In this document: positions 1-13,797 of the stretch, one piece after another | Position numbering within the stretch: position 1 is the stretch's first letter | How the letters are laid out: every line of letters begins with the position of its first letter | Origin: Bacillus sp. Cs-700 | Lineage (GTDB): Bacteria; Bacillota; Bacilli; Bacillales; Guptibacillaceae | DNA length: 64,000 bases | Direction: 5' to 3' | Assembly: GCF_011082085.1 (NCBI RefSeq) | Contig: NZ_CP041063.1 | Span: 3,768,001-3,832,000, forward strand | Notes under the pieces: generated by a model | Told to the model about the DNA's origin: nothing | The model's database searches: none | Seen by the model: only the letters and a program-made list of their open reading frames with translations | Translations under genes and position numbers: made by a program

Positions 1-62
1 CTAGCAGAGGTTTAGAAAAAACATCTTATGAACAGTAATTTTTTAAAAAAGAATGTAAACGA

Positions 63-90
63 TTGTATTTTATTTATATTAAGATATAAT
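63..90 (+). promoter_or_regulatory. Probable sigma-A promoter of the NAD regulator gene
   Basis: TTGTAT (63-68) and a perfect TATAAT (85-90) are separated by 16 bases, close to a housekeeping promoter. Transcription would begin near 97, just before the palindrome at 102-116, so a protein bound there would block initiation or clearance. Confidence 0.6.
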
Positions 91-101
91 AAAGCTAATA
101 A

Positions 102-116
102 TTAACATATTGTTAA
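102..116. promoter_or_regulatory. Candidate NrtR operator 1 (TTAACA-N3-TGTTAA)
   Basis: A perfect inverted repeat with a 3-base spacer (TTAACA TAT TGTTAA) lies 11 bases after the -10 box. The same half sites with spacer ATG recur at 949-963 before the nicotinamidase gene. NrtR is a Nudix-derived repressor of NAD genes that binds palindromes; the assignment to this protein is inferred from position and recurrence. Confidence 0.65.
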
Positions 117-147
117 ATAAAAGTATAGTATGTAAAGGGGAAAAACC

Positions 148-930
148 ATGTCAAATCAAGAAGCGCTTGATCAATATGATGTTAAAAAGTATCGTACTCC
201 AGATGGTTATACTTCTGATATCGCAGTTTTCACAATCGTCTCTGAAAAGAACGCCGATTATAAACCATCCAAGATGACGCTAAAACTGATGTTGATCAAA
301 CGAGCGAAACAGAATAACGAAAAACAGGTTAACATCGAAGCTGACAAGTGGGCTCTACCTGGTGGTTTCGTTCAAGATGATGAAACAGCATTTGAAGCTG
401 CAGGTCGAGAATTATTTGAAGAAACGGGTGTATCTAAGATACATCTAAAACATTTCGGTATTTATGATAAGCCAGGTAGAGATCCTCGCGGTTGGATTAT
501 CTCAAATGCCCATTATGCCATTGTCTCCTCTCAACAACTCGCTAAAAGAAGAGCTGATGACGATGCAGCGGAAGTAGAATTATTTTCGATGGATGAAGTT
601 TACAACCTTAACCTTGCTTTTGATCACAGGCAAATCATCAAAGAGGCTTTTGTAGTCATTAAACAGGATCTTCTTCTAACTACGGTTGCTAAAAACTTTT
701 TGCCAGAACAATTTACTTATTCTGAATTACAAGCGGTGCTCTTGACTGTTACGGACGATTCGGCTATTTCAAGCGATGCAGGATTTGCAAGAAAAATTAA
801 GTCCCTTCCCTTCATTAAGGTTGTTGAGGGAAAAAAGACACAGAGAACATCAAAAATACCGACTCAGTTGTACCGATTTGTTCATACGGATGCTGCTATC
901 ATCAAACCGATCTACACAGCGAGATATTAA
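148..930 (+). CDS. nrtR: NrtR-like Nudix-family regulator of NAD metabolism
   Basis: 260 aa. The N-terminal half is a Nudix domain with a complete Nudix box at about residues 73-95 (G-x5-E-x7-RELFEETGV). The C-terminal part (about 165-255) has the winged-helix region typical of NrtR, a repressor released by ADP-ribose-type ligands. Many NrtR proteins have a damaged Nudix box; this one keeps the REx2EE metal-binding residues and might still hydrolyse ADP-ribose. It is followed by pncA, pncB and a nadD-like gene, the usual NrtR targets, and is flanked by two copies of the same palindrome. The start is ATG after a GGGG-rich ribosome site. A purely enzymatic ADP-ribose pyrophosphatase role is the main alternative. 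Confidence 0.75.
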   Translation: MSNQEALDQYDVKKYRTPDGYTSDIAVFTIVSEKNADYKPSKMTLKLMLIKRAKQNNEKQVNIEADKWALPGGFVQDDETAFEAAGRELFEETGVSKIHLKHFGIYDKPGRDPRGWIISNAHYAIVSSQQLAKRRADDDAAEVELFSMDEVYNLNLAFDHRQIIKEAFVVIKQDLLLTTVAKNFLPEQFTYSELQAVLLTVTDDSAISSDAGFARKIKSLPFIKVVEGKKTQRTSKIPTQLYRFVHTDAAIIKPIYTARY

Positions 931-948
931 TTTTTTTAGTTTTAATTA

Positions 949-963
949 TTAACAATGTGTTAA
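949..963. promoter_or_regulatory. Candidate NrtR operator 2 (TTAACA-N3-TGTTAA)
   Basis: TTAACA ATG TGTTAA, identical in both half sites and spacing to the palindrome at 102-116, lies 27 bases before the pncA start. Two matching palindromes in front of two consecutive genes make a shared repressor likely. Confidence 0.65.
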
Positions 964-990
964 TCGTTAATTAAATGGGAGGTTTTCACT

Positions 991-1542
991 TTGAGTAAAA
1001 AAGCATTGATAAATATTGATTATACGAATGATTTTGTTTCTGATAAGGGTGCGTTGACGTGTGGTATACCCGCGCAACAAATTGAAGAGAACATGTTAGC
1101 CGTAACCAAACAGTTCATTGATGACGGTGATTATGTTGTTTTTGCAGTCGATATCCATCACAAAAATGATCCTTATCATCCAGAAACCAATCTTTTCCCT
1201 GCTCACAATTTATCTGGTAGCAATGGCAGAAACTTATATGGCGAGTTGAATCGACTATACGAAGATAACGACTCACTCCAGAACGTTTATTGGATGGACA
1301 AAACACGCTACTCTGCTTTTGCAGGAACAGATCTTGAATTAAAGTTACGAGAACGGGGAATATCAGAATTACACCTCGTAGGGGTATGTACAGAAATCTG
1401 TGTTCTCCATACTGCTGTTGATGCTTACAACAAGGGGTTTAAAATCGTTGTGTACAAAGATGCAGTGGCTAGCTTCAATCACGTTGGGCACGAGTGGGCT
1501 CTTGGTCACTTTAAAGCTTGTTTAGGAGCGGATGTTATTTAA
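991..1542 (+). CDS. pncA: Nicotinamidase (isochorismatase-fold cysteine hydrolase)
   Basis: 183 aa, normal length for PncA. It would convert nicotinamide to nicotinate, the first step of the deamidating NAD salvage route. The catalytic triad is visible: Asp10 (NIDYTNDF), Lys104 (MDKTRY) and Cys137 (GVCTEIC). A histidine-rich metal-site segment follows Asp54 (VDIHH). The start is TTG with GGGAGG eight bases upstream. Its placement between an NrtR-like regulator and pncB supports nicotinamidase over other isochorismatase-fold hydrolases. Confidence 0.88.
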   Translation: MSKKALINIDYTNDFVSDKGALTCGIPAQQIEENMLAVTKQFIDDGDYVVFAVDIHHKNDPYHPETNLFPAHNLSGSNGRNLYGELNRLYEDNDSLQNVYWMDKTRYSAFAGTDLELKLRERGISELHLVGVCTEICVLHTAVDAYNKGFKIVVYKDAVASFNHVGHEWALGHFKACLGADVI

Positions 1543-1659
1543 GTTTACGCTCTGTACGTCTTATTGAATATAGCCTTCCTATCAAACGGATAAAAGGAGA
1601 ATCAACTAATTGTTTTCCATACTCTTTTTACATTTTTAAATTTTTAGGAGGAATCGACT

Positions 1660-3114
1660 ATGACGAATACGTATGTTGACGATAGCTTTGCTCTACATAC
1701 TGATCTTTATCAAATCAATATGGCAGAAGCCTACTGGAGAGATAACTTCCATAACAGAAAAGCTGTTTTTGAAGTATTTTTTCGGAAACTCCCATTCGGA
1801 AGTGGCTATGCCCTCTTCGCTGGTCTTGAACGAGTAATTGAATACTTAAAAGACTTTCGCTTCTCCGAAAGTGATTTGGCGTATCTACGGGATCAGGGCT
1901 ACAAAGAAGACTTTCTTAACTACTTGAGCACAGTCCGTTTTACAGGAACCATTCAATCAATGAAAGAAGGCGAAGTTGTTTTTGGCAACGAACCGATCAT
2001 TCGCATTGAAGCACCATTATTGGAAGCGCAGCTAATTGAGACACCTCTACTCACGATCGTAAATTATCACATACTGATTGCAACGAAAGCTTCCCGAATC
2101 GTCCAAGCGATTGGTGATGGTACAGCAATGGAATTCGGATCTAGAAGAAGTCAGGAGTTTGATGCTGGTATATATGGAACAAGAGCCGCGTATATCGCAG
2201 GGTTCTCCGCTACTTCCAATGTAAGAGCGGGTAAGAAATTCGGTATACCGATCGCTGGAACTCACGCTCACTCACTTGTTCAAGCTTATCGCGATGAATA
2301 CACAGCATTTAAGAAGTATGCAACTACTCATCGAGAGTGCACCTTCTTAGTTGATACGTATGACACATTAAAGTCAGGTGTTCCTAATGCGATTAGAGTT
2401 GCGGACGAAGAGGGGGATAACATTCACTTCAAAGCCATTCGCCTTGATAGCGGTGATCTCTCCTTCCTTTCAAAAGAGGCAAGAAAGAAACTGGATCAAG
2501 CAGGATACAAAAACACGAAGATCGCAGCCTCAAATGATTTGGATGAATATACGATTACCGATTTGAAGTCTCAAGGAGCTAAAATTGATATTTGGGGAGT
2601 TGGTACGAAGGTTATCACAGCTTTCGATCAACCGGCTCTTGGCGCAGTTTACAAACTTGTTTCAATAGAAGATGAAAGTGGACAGATGGCAGATACGATT
2701 AAAATTAGTGCTAATCCAGAAAAAGTTTCAACTCCAGGCTTGAAAAAAGTCTATCGTATCATTAATAAATCCAATGGAAAATCAGAAGGAGATTACATTG
2801 CGTTAGCACACGAAAAACCTCAAGAAGAAGAACGATTAAAAATGTTCCACCCCGTCCACACGTTTATCAGTAAATTTGTCACTAACTTTGAAGCGAGAGA
2901 GCTCCACCACACGATCTTTCAAGATGGTGAACTTGTGTATCAGTGCCCTCCGCTTCAAGATGTACAAGCATTTGTTAAGGACAATTTAAACCTCTTGTGG
3001 GATGAATACAAACGGTTGAAAATGCCCGAAGAGTATCCAGTGGATTTAAGCCAATCTTGTTGGGATAACAAAATGAGCAAGATCCAAGAAATTAAAGAGA
3101 AGGTTTCACTTTAG
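1660..3114 (+). CDS. pncB: Nicotinate phosphoribosyltransferase
   Basis: 484 aa. It joins nicotinate to PRPP to give nicotinate mononucleotide, using ATP. It carries the family segments EFGSRRSQ (about 159-166) and GTHAHS (about 201-205), the latter holding the histidine phosphorylated during catalysis. The length matches Firmicute PncB. ATG follows AGGAGG with good spacing. About 117 bases separate it from pncA without a terminator, so the two are probably co-transcribed from the palindrome-controlled promoter. Confidence 0.93.
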   Translation: MTNTYVDDSFALHTDLYQINMAEAYWRDNFHNRKAVFEVFFRKLPFGSGYALFAGLERVIEYLKDFRFSESDLAYLRDQGYKEDFLNYLSTVRFTGTIQSMKEGEVVFGNEPIIRIEAPLLEAQLIETPLLTIVNYHILIATKASRIVQAIGDGTAMEFGSRRSQEFDAGIYGTRAAYIAGFSATSNVRAGKKFGIPIAGTHAHSLVQAYRDEYTAFKKYATTHRECTFLVDTYDTLKSGVPNAIRVADEEGDNIHFKAIRLDSGDLSFLSKEARKKLDQAGYKNTKIAASNDLDEYTITDLKSQGAKIDIWGVGTKVITAFDQPALGAVYKLVSIEDESGQMADTIKISANPEKVSTPGLKKVYRIINKSNGKSEGDYIALAHEKPQEEERLKMFHPVHTFISKFVTNFEARELHHTIFQDGELVYQCPPLQDVQAFVKDNLNLLWDEYKRLKMPEEYPVDLSQSCWDNKMSKIQEIKEKVSL

Positions 3115-3167
3115 CAGTGGCGCCTCTGAACATTAGCCGCTAAATGACTTGATGTAGAATTTCTAAC

Positions 3168-3207
3168 AACCCACCTTGGCCCGCATTTTTAAGAGGCGTG
3201 GTGGGTT
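3168..3207 (+). terminator. Possible hairpin after pncB
   Basis: AACCCACC (3168-3175) pairs exactly with GGTGGGTT (3200-3207) around a 24-base loop. There is no long T run after it, so it may only weaken read-through into the nadD-like gene. Confidence 0.4.
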
Positions 3208-3275
3208 CTGTTAAGATTATACTATCTATGTTTGTAATTAATGGAAATGAGAAAACATTCTGAGGGGGATTACAT

Positions 3276-3899
3276 ATGGCGAAAATCGGTATTTATGGAT
3301 CTTCTTTTGATCCAATTACAAATGTCCATTTGTGGACGGCGAACACGATTGCAAATAGGTGCAAACTTGATAAGGTTGTTTTCTTGCCCTGCTCAAACAA
3401 ACGTCGAGATAAAACGATAAAAACAAGCAATGAAGATCGTTGGAACCTTTTGTCTTTAGCAACGAAAAACAACGATACATTTGTTTTAAGTGATTACGAA
3501 ATAAATCAAGAAGGCTGGCACCTAACAACATATGAAACATTAAGTCACTTCAAAAAGGCTTATCCAGATGATGAAATTTACTTTATTATGGGTGCTGACT
3601 TACTTGTTGATATTGCAGAAGGCAGATGGGGTAAATCAGAAAAGTTGATTAAGGAGAATAAATTTATCGTCATGGCTCGTGACGGTATAGATATGTTAAA
3701 AGCGATCAGCAGCTCTCCACTTCTTCGCACTAATGACGATGGTACATTTCACTTACTAGACAAAGGAATTGCTATGGAGATTAGTTCTAGCTATATCCGT
3801 GACGAATTATCTATGGGTGGTGCACCGAGGTATTTACTTCCAGATGATTGTTATGATTACATTCTTGCAAATTCATTGTATATCCAGGATGAAAAATGA
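3276..3899 (+). CDS. Nicotinate-nucleotide adenylyltransferase family protein (NadD-like)
   Basis: 207 aa. NadD enzymes adenylate nicotinate mononucleotide to deamido-NAD. The nucleotidyltransferase signature GSSFDP (8-13) is followed by T15-x-x-H18, the (T/H)xxH form of the ATP site, and ISSSYIR near residue 170 matches the conserved ISSTxIR segment. The ribosome site GAGGGGG precedes the ATG. Most Bacillaceae carry the housekeeping nadD elsewhere, so this is likely a paralogue belonging to the NrtR locus. Its stop codon abuts the remains of nadE. Confidence 0.82.
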   Translation: MAKIGIYGSSFDPITNVHLWTANTIANRCKLDKVVFLPCSNKRRDKTIKTSNEDRWNLLSLATKNNDTFVLSDYEINQEGWHLTTYETLSHFKKAYPDDEIYFIMGADLLVDIAEGRWGKSEKLIKENKFIVMARDGIDMLKAISSSPLLRTNDDGTFHLLDKGIAMEISSSYIRDELSMGGAPRYLLPDDCYDYILANSLYIQDEK

Positions 3900-4203
3900 T
3901 GACGATACAAAAACAAACTATGAGGAATTACATACAAAAACAACCATCGATCCATATTTTGAAATCATTATTAGAGTTACTTTGTTAAAATCAGGGACAA
4001 AAGTTTTTACTAGGAATAAGCGGTGTGCAAGGTTCCACTCTGGCTGGAGTACTAGCTGAACTGGTGGGAGAAGAAGCAAGAATCGTAGAAAAGCTCCCAC
4101 CGCTGATTTCCTTGATTATACGCCACTACAAAAAAATGAAATTAAACCAGAATTATCTTATGGCAATCTTGAAGGTAAGCCTTTTAAAAAGATAGCGCCA
4201 TAA
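3897..4203 (+). pseudogene. nadE: Remnant of NAD synthetase gene (nadE), deleted and frameshifted
   Basis: Three fragments in two frames resemble NadE in order. From about 3912 (same frame as TAA 4201) a segment reading ELHTKTTIDP resembles the NadE N-terminus. At about 4000 the homology shifts by +1 to GISGVQGSTLAG, a damaged form of the ATP-binding GISGGQDSTLAG loop. At about 4090 it shifts back and reads KAPTADFLD then SYGNLEGK, resembling the NadE C-terminal PTADLLDEKP and YLEGK region. The central part of the enzyme (roughly 140-150 residues) is missing. NadE would complete the pncA-pncB-nadD route, so the position fits. It cannot make a working enzyme; the cell must have another nadE. 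Confidence 0.82.
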
Positions 4204-12668: not shown

Positions 12669-13223
12669 TTATGCCCTTTCCGACATCCTAATAAAAAGAT
12701 TGGTTATTAGTTTGGCGGCGTAAACGACAAATAAGTAGGCTGCTAAGAGTACGAACCAATTTGTATACAGTTCAAAAAGGTTGAGTCCTATTAGGAGTGG
12801 TTTAAAGATAAATGTAAACGCAATGGCAGAAAGCGTACCATATAGCCAGTAGTTTTTCTCCTTATTTAAGCACCATTGGTAAAGCAAAATAAAATAAACC
12901 GGTATGAATGAAGCGTCGATGCTAATGCTTGCAGGGAGTTGAGGGATGGCGATGTAAGGGTAATCCCACCAGGACTTTCTGACCCCTAGTGAGTCAAGAT
13001 AGGCAGCGATGACATGAATTGAAAAGCCAAAAAACCCAAGAAGGAAGATGTTTTTACGATCGATCAAGAAATACAATACGATAAGAGGGACGAGGAGCAT
13101 AGCAAGTATGGTCCAGAATTGCCACGTACTATAATTAGAGAACTGATGCCAGTAATCAATCGTTGCAGCTTCAAGTTCTTTTTTTATTGAAAGGATATGA
13201 TCAAATTGCTGTTGACGATCCAT
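12669..13223 (-). CDS. CBO0543-family membrane protein
   Basis: 184 aa with about five hydrophobic segments after a hydrophilic N-terminus. The segment SWWDYPYIAIPQLPASISIDASFIPV is typical of a family of Firmicute membrane proteins of unknown function. GGGAGG precedes the ATG. It is monocistronic and divergent from a VOC-family gene. Confidence 0.65.
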   Translation of the reverse strand: MDRQQQFDHILSIKKELEAATIDYWHQFSNYSTWQFWTILAMLLVPLIVLYFLIDRKNIFLLGFFGFSIHVIAAYLDSLGVRKSWWDYPYIAIPQLPASISIDASFIPVYFILLYQWCLNKEKNYWLYGTLSAIAFTFIFKPLLIGLNLFELYTNWFVLLAAYLFVVYAAKLITNLFIRMSERA

Positions 13224-13386
13224 TTAAATACCTCCCTTTATGGGTAGTATTTATCGATTGTTGAAACGGTATTACAAATCGGGAAAACTTTTGATAAGTT
13301 AAGTGAAAGATCATCCTACTAAAAGGAAAGTAAAGCATCAGTGACGAATTAATAAGCGACTTTACTATCCTAAATGAGGTGATGGG

Positions 13387-13797
13387 TTGGCTCGAACCGC
13401 AAAGCAATTATTTGTTAACTTACCGGTGAAGAACTTGGATAAGTCGATTCATTTTTTCACAGAGCTTGGTTTTGAATTTAATCCACAATTTACAGATGAG
13501 AAAGCTACGTGTATGGTGATCAATGAAAATACGTTTGTGATGCTGCTTGTTGAAGAGTTTTTTAAAACATTTACTACAAAGGAGCTAGTCAATCCAAAGT
13601 CATCAACGGAAGTGATTATGGCGATATCAGCTGAAAGCAATGATGAAGTTGATGAGATTGTGAAGCGAGCGCTAAACGCCGGGGGAAGTTCTTCAAATGA
13701 CGCCATTGACCATGGTTTCATGTATGCATGGAGCTTCCAAGATCTAGATGGTCATCTGTGGGAAGTGATGCATATGCAGGAAGGTTCAGTAGAGTAA
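13387..13797 (+). CDS. VOC-family (glyoxalase/bleomycin-resistance-like) protein
   Basis: 136 aa, one VOC domain: FVNLPVKNLDKSIHFFTELGFE at the start and DLDGHLWEVMHM at the end, the usual metal-edge strands. The length suits lactoylglutathione-lyase-like YaeR/PhnB relatives. The substrate is unknown. The start is TTG after GAGGTGAT; an ATG five bases earlier is out of frame. Confidence 0.82.
   Translation: MARTAKQLFVNLPVKNLDKSIHFFTELGFEFNPQFTDEKATCMVINENTFVMLLVEEFFKTFTTKELVNPKSSTEVIMAISAESNDEVDEIVKRALNAGGSSSNDAIDHGFMYAWSFQDLDGHLWEVMHMQEGSVE

Follow-up and report, generated by a model that had tools for sequence, protein, structure and literature searches.

The grouping of NAD salvage genes under the regulator NrtR was reportedly set out by Rodionov in 2008. 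A streptococcal example is SsNrtR of S. sobrinus, and the available parts of that report (PMC12735969) share with the locus described here a regulator combining Nudix and winged-helix domains, sites before NAD salvage genes, and a PncA-PncB-NadD-NadE route. Our locus lies near the start of a 64,000-nucleotide stretch, referred to throughout as the window, that covers positions 3,768,001-3,832,000 of a single-contig, 4.30 Mb genome (G000). It differs from known NrtR-regulated salvage systems in three respects: the enzyme genes and the regulator lie together in one insert, the last gene is dead, and no predicted operator accompanies the resident nadE.

The same gene order is found in Bacillus phage G, in which gp273, gp275, gp277, gp281 and gp283 encode a Nudix protein, an isochorismatase-type hydrolase, a nicotinate phosphoribosyltransferase, NadD and NadE. 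The phage proteins are 41-47% identical to those of the window, and the phage cluster has extra genes in between and an intact nadE. Directly before the phage nadD, gp280 (L024, 5438-5998) carries a KptA-like phosphotransferase annotation. Two megaplasmids, one from Paenibacillus cellulositrophicus and one from Priestia megaterium, carry clusters with 64-76% identity in NrtR, PncB and NadD and with the same predicted operator before nrtR; unlike the window, they have a full-length nadE, and the Paenibacillus plasmid locus gave no PncA match. Other phage pathways also refill NAD from breakdown products, as far as the available portions of the reports describe them: NARP1 reconstitutes NAD with Adps and Namat (PMC12774641), and two reports describe a phosphoribosyltransferase for nicotinamide together with adenylyltransferases (PMC9503650, which names NadV, NadM and NadR, and PMC7824862), with the word NadE absent from those portions of the last two reports. 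These pathways rebuild NAD from ADP-ribose or via NMN, whereas the window cluster runs through nicotinate and needs NadE. Compared with NARP1, all four cluster proteins match other families in NCBIfam and Pfam, libraries that may not include Adps or Namat models. A search of titles and the beginnings of abstracts, with most subscription papers outside its scope, returned nothing among the matches listed on this pseudogene, on a nicotinate-route cluster in phage G, or on variable nadE in such clusters.

The plus-strand gene run near the window start consists of nrtR, a pncA-like gene, pncB and nadD, followed by a nadE remnant (Table 1). The four genes were identified with NCBIfam and Pfam profiles. 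The initial annotation of an NrtR-type NAD salvage locus with a broken nadE is confirmed: the cluster ends here in a pseudogene of nadE (NAD synthetase). The regulator scores 103.2 bits against the NCBIfam equivalog NF050029, below the cut-off of 400, and we therefore call it an NrtR-type regulator rather than that equivalog. Its Nudix box is complete (GFVQDDETAFEAAGRELFEETGV), in contrast to that of streptococcal NrtR, which is reported lost in the available part of PMC12735969; judging by this motif, the window protein may have retained ADP-ribose hydrolysis. The pncA-like protein reached no NCBIfam nicotinamidase equivalog cut-off (PRK11609, 38.9 bits; cut-off 174), and its gene context makes a nicotinamidase probable. 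A resident nadD is present in the genome alongside the cluster nadD, and the two are 31% identical. Besides pncB, the genome has a gene for a nicotinate phosphoribosyltransferase that belongs to a different class (PRK07188, 595 bits; L030, 1903-3009, minus strand, G000:C1 at ~1.492 Mb). All 14 genomes of the genus show weak PncB matches whose open frames span 369-373 residues, with the class assigned for the G000 copy only.

Table 1. Positions of the insert, its genes and the predicted operators within the window.
Feature	Position	Strand	Basis
Insert, as judged from the empty site in G008 and G009	18..4201		Both edges approximate, up to ~20 bases
Predicted NrtR operator, perfect palindrome TTAACANNNTGTTAA, upstream of nrtR	102..116		Pattern search
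nrtR, Nudix-type NAD regulator with winged helix	148..930	+	Pfam NUDIX (PF00293) 59 bits, NrtR_WHD (PF21906) 32.4 bits, both above cut-off
Predicted NrtR operator, perfect palindrome TTAACANNNTGTTAA, upstream of pncA	949..963		Pattern search
pncA-like cysteine hydrolase, probable nicotinamidase	991..1542	+	Pfam Isochorismatase PF00857, 120.6 bits; function from context
pncB, nicotinate phosphoribosyltransferase	1660..3114	+	NCBIfam PRK09243.1-4, 891.6 bits, cut-off 776
nadD, cluster type, nicotinate-nucleotide adenylyltransferase	3276..3899	+	TIGR00482, 141.6 bits, cut-off 112.45
Pseudogene remnant of nadE in three NadE-like pieces, frame changed twice, middle and 3' end gone	3889..4203	+	Translation, tblastn, shuffles

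When the frames of 3898 and 3899 were translated and NadE proteins were used as tblastn queries, the three NadE-like fragments noticed earlier were recovered in order: ELHTKTTIDP... at 3925-3993, FLLGISGVQGSTLAG... inside 3989-4081, and KAPTADFLD...LEGK at 4090-4179. These correspond to residues 8-30, 35-65 and 204-237 of the NadE of G017, the nearest intact cluster (270 aligned residues). The two changes of frame and the missing middle of the protein were likewise as first described, with residues ~66-203 (~138) absent, and residues ~238-270 (~33) are absent from the end. Added together, the alignments of the fragments to NadE score 87 bits; shuffling the same DNA 60 times gave no more than 36, and the opposite strand gave 17. 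At the DNA level, the remnant weakly matches six of eight loci in which the cluster nadE is intact (the best, L034, at E 1.4e-07). In the ATP-pyrophosphatase motif, the remnant reads SGVQGS, whereas all 11 cluster NadEs checked read SGGQDS. With three collinear pieces homologous to NadE (PRK00768 / TIGR00552), but with neither an intact motif nor a full-length open frame, the remnant is by its sequence a pseudogene rather than a working member of the family. The right end originally given for it (4203) stands; the left end, first placed at 3897, is better set at 3889, because an in-frame ATG at that position, within the end of nadD, agrees with the start of other cluster NadEs. From this ATG, the frame of 3898 is open for 56 codons, as might be expected if the remnant had taken on a new role as a short peptide or RNA element behind nadD; however, the matching stretch contains stops in the sister genome G007 and is lost in G011, indicating that it is not conserved, and we consider such a role very improbable.

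We rejected a duplicate of the resident nadE as the source of the remnant, since DNA similarity to that gene consists of chance matches of 10-11 bases. Its mean score is 66.6 bits with cluster-type NadEs (n=30) and 59.5 bits with the rest (n=57), a small margin, with some copies that lie elsewhere scoring equally high. Open frames of 487-494 residues raised the possibility of a NadD-NadE fusion, which we rejected: the NadE motif was found in none of the 12 nadD frames obtained from 13 loci (L112, among the 12, is without nadE, and L117 gave no frame).

The initial annotation held that loss of this last step is affordable only if a second nadE exists. A Pfam search of the genome found one full-length NAD_synthase match (1,239,672-1,240,394), together with three short matches of ~27 bits in other open frames. 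The full-length match lies in an intact gene (G000:C1:1239645-1240469) that scores 422.6 bits with PRK00768, above the NAD(+) synthase cut-off. The genome thus has one intact nadE besides the remnant, making loss of the cluster copy affordable. The resident gene and the remnant belong to the same family (PRK00768) and differ in that the resident copy is intact; it falls in the mostly resident branch of a NadE tree, whose rows do not include the remnant. In a protein search, each of the 14 genus genomes had exactly one NadE match. The best reading is ordinary loss by redundancy, caught midway: most probably, the cluster nadE was lost after transfer, and the four remaining genes are in use with the resident NadE finishing the pathway. 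This is a real nadE pseudogene with an ordinary cause in an informative setting.

In the congeners G008 and G009, the flanking DNA is continuous and the cluster is absent, with 93 and 87 bases, respectively, in place of ~4.2 kb in G000. The insertion place lies between a HAD-hydrolase gene and a DUF421 gene. At the right junction, the match to NadE runs no further than 4179; by blastn, the empty site of G009 begins to match at 4182, and it is near-identical from 4202. Relative to these empty sites, the cluster has been inserted, and its right junction is where the nadE ruin stops. Because the missing 3' end of nadE coincides with the insert edge, part of the damage may date from the insertion. 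Taken further, the insertion could have cut the cluster inside nadE, such that the last ~30 codons were missing from the start and the gene rotted later. The near-meeting of the NadE and empty-site similarities agrees with arrival in this dead state, as does the lack of a convincing 3' part of nadE in G007. However, the right side of G007 differs from that of G000, so the G000 junction may be a later deletion, and the left insert edges of the two genomes also differ, indicating that the edges have been reworked. We view arrival of an already truncated gene as possible, if rather doubtful. If nadE was lost by redundancy, its place at the insert end may plausibly have contributed as well.

Cluster-type PncB is present in 4 of the 14 genus genomes, G000 itself, G007, G011 and G013, and none of the four has an intact nadE beside the cluster. 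Recent decay would leave relatives with an intact nadE in this place; as no close relative keeps one, the loss is not shown to be very recent. In G007, which has the cluster at the same site, the start of nadE is retained, as is a piece (GDGGTDIVPL, residues ~171-180) that is gone from G000; conversely, G000 retains pieces that are missing from G007. The two ruins are therefore not nested, and if there was one insertion, the common copy spanned pieces over residues ~8-237. An additional match in G007 to residues 184-237 of the resident NadE (E 0.021) lies in another open frame and was taken as chance. G011 has no convincing trace of nadE after the start, matches at E >= 0.045 being taken as chance. 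In G013, nadE is gone and nadD is reduced to a match over its first ~23 residues. Sequencing or assembly error in an intact nadE was rejected as extremely unlikely, since ~170 residues are absent from the G000 copy, beyond what mere frame shifts would produce, and the separate assemblies of G007, G011 and G013 have no intact gene beside the cluster. At the expected nadE start in G011 (L027, 9896-10085), there is a 190-base stretch with GGGACGGTTCT / AGAACCGTCCC arms and a predicted fold of -86 kcal/mol (raw value); further copies of the GGGACGGTTCT / AGAACCGTCCC motif lie within the locus. A frame at 12901-13677 of the same locus presumably encodes a REP-type transposase.

G011 and G013 have the cluster at other sites, and on their contigs C8 and C42 the flanking genes stand without a cluster. 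G000 and G011 show a silent divergence of 0.22-0.32 for the cluster genes, 0.84 for the resident nadE and 1.48 for a flanking gene; the corresponding values between G011 and G013 are 0.07-0.11, 0.34 and 1.33. For both pairs, the cluster is far less diverged than the resident nadE and the flanking gene, which points to transfer within the genus. Between G000 and G007, the values are 0.12-0.28 for the cluster genes, 0.17 for the resident nadE and 0.28 for the flanking gene, a degree of agreement that fits a single insertion followed by descent. G008 is closer to G000 than G007 is by nadE (0.046), but not by the flanking gene (0.43), and yet it has no cluster, so loss or recombination must also have happened.

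We estimated dN/dS to be 0.05-0.09 for pncB, 0.12-0.18 for nrtR and 0.19-0.37 for pncA among the four genomes, with the top pncA value coming from 19 changes, and 0.04 for nadD among three genomes. By these ratios, the four remaining genes are under purifying selection, suggesting that the remaining cluster is in use. The locus can be seen as a snapshot of an acquired pathway being trimmed to its host, with the step that the host performs lost and the rest kept under selection. Nevertheless, the cluster nadD is strongly conserved in the three genomes although a resident nadD exists; hence, redundancy alone does not answer why nadE was lost and nadD kept.

The regulator has Nudix and winged-helix domains, and palindromic predicted operators lie at the NAD genes. 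Perfect copies of TTAACANNNTGTTAA number three in the whole genome, two of them in the cluster, whereas the reversed control pattern has none. When the pattern, derived from the window, was then applied to 62 loci that include the window and near-copies and are not all independent, 56 had a site with up to two mismatches within 150 nt before nrtR (2.3 expected); before pncA, such a site was present in 31 of 58 loci (1.7 expected). The third perfect palindrome in the genome (G000:C1:1918242-1918256, L071) has no NAD gene seen adjoining; we take the frames that flank it to be eno and secG. With the same tolerance, phage G has no site within 150 bases before its Nudix or hydrolase gene, and none was found in the viral contig L069 either. 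We also considered whether NrtR controls the resident nadE and rejected this: no predicted site with up to two mismatches lies in its 3.7 kb locus, and the last step thus seems to be outside the predicted regulon.

Together, these features suggest the following course of events. A transferable, NrtR-controlled salvage cluster of nrtR, pncA, pncB, nadD and nadE would have entered the genus, where the resident chromosomal nadE covered the last step and left the cluster copy free to decay; G000 and G007 would then have lost different parts of it. In the available part of PMC12735969, NrtR proteins are described as releasing DNA when they bind ADP-ribose, and by analogy we infer that the window NrtR senses ADP-ribose. 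Breakdown of NAD would yield ADP-ribose and nicotinamide, and as ADP-ribose builds up, NrtR would leave its predicted operators. The cluster PncA, PncB and NadD would convert nicotinamide to nicotinate, NaMN and NaAD in turn, and the resident NadE would complete the synthesis of NAD.

Across 397 genomes of the order, cluster-type nadD (E <=1e-35) was found in 72. In a survey conditioned on nadD, 37 places outside the genus have nrtR, pncA, pncB and nadD together; nadE is adjacent in 19, near full length and stop-free, and absent from 18. A survey based on nrtR (E <=1e-40; 82 genomes), which used contig distance only, on either strand, and in which draft assemblies may split clusters, placed nadE near nrtR in 28 genomes, as the sole copy in 15 and with a second copy in 13, and not near it in 54, all of which have nadE elsewhere. 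These data suggest that in relatives the last NAD step is often left to a nadE copy elsewhere in the genome. Retention of near and distant copies in 13 of the 82 genomes indicates that redundancy does not always lead to loss. It also tells against selected removal, in which a second NadE under NrtR control would be harmful through dosage or mistimed NAD synthesis and its loss favoured. We judge such selection unlikely, even though several genera have clusters that are complete but for nadE (18 of the 37 places) and 58 of 73 genomes with cluster genes have a single NadE match, both of which it would explain.

At least 38 candidate loci were available, of which L031-L045 (n=15) were compared and L046-L068 set aside as weak matches; L031-L041 (n=11) are of the cluster type, and among the matches listed, nadE follows nadD in seven of them. 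It does so as well in phage G, in the two megaplasmids and in the 156-kb viral contig L069. Some of the sets are incomplete: PncA had no match in L022 or L069, PncB had none in L031, and NrtR had none in L038. The proposal that the cluster was once a complete nicotinamide-to-NAD module is supported by the adjacent nadE in 19 of the 37 places, in phage G and in both megaplasmids. In 20 places outside the genus that have pncA, pncB and nadD but not nadE, we found no convincing scrap of the gene, only three weak matches (E 0.003-0.006) in unlikely places; loss, as opposed to a gene never present, is thus shown only in the locus described here. Simple loss from the 3' end inward does not hold as a general rule, since in 7 of the 82 genomes nadE lies near nrtR whereas nadD does not.

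On a 52-row tree built from NrtR, PncB and NadD, the distribution of nadE requires nine changes, and starred branches force at least six of them. Outside the genus, the nearest cluster is that of G017; it has nadE, the only NadE match in that genome. This tree does not separate gain from loss, whereas, on the sequences retained, the ruins in G000 and G007 can do so for this branch. A NadE tree (90 rows) has a mostly cluster-borne branch, which includes phage G and the plasmids, and a mostly resident branch, with exceptions both ways (nine changes, at least four forced). Both are quick trees with no bootstrap and with long phage branches. The order-wide pattern of nadE in the cluster, elsewhere, or in both places offers natural replicates for the question of which essential-gene copy persists after transfer, and it ties a bacterial NAD salvage cluster to the nicotinate-route cluster of a jumbo phage.

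The ten genomes of genus g23 have no resident-type nadD at E 1e-25, suggesting that the cluster-type nadD serves alone or has replaced the resident one. Their neighbouring nadE is the only NadE match and is placed in the mostly resident NadE branch. We tentatively suggest that the cluster is a transferable, ADP-ribose-sensing NAD refill circuit that Bacillales genomes, megaplasmids and a jumbo phage have in common, and that its last enzymes can be exchanged for those of the host; in some hosts an incoming nadE, and in one genus a cluster-type nadD, would have displaced the resident gene, and in others, as here, the resident nadE would prevail and the incoming one rot. Its use may be restoration of NAD after NAD-destroying immunity or stress. 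The g23 loci (L122, L123, L130, L132-L135 and L137-L139) have pncB-nadD-nadE with no NrtR match in the locus, and pncA in nine of the ten. In genus g68 (G193, G282, G302 and G341), the cluster is split the reverse way round: nrtR lies ~3 kb from the only NadE match, and the cluster-type nadD is distant or on another contig. The clusters of L124, in which pncB was matched in two pieces, and of L180, where nrtR was matched in three and nadD only partially, may be damaged too.
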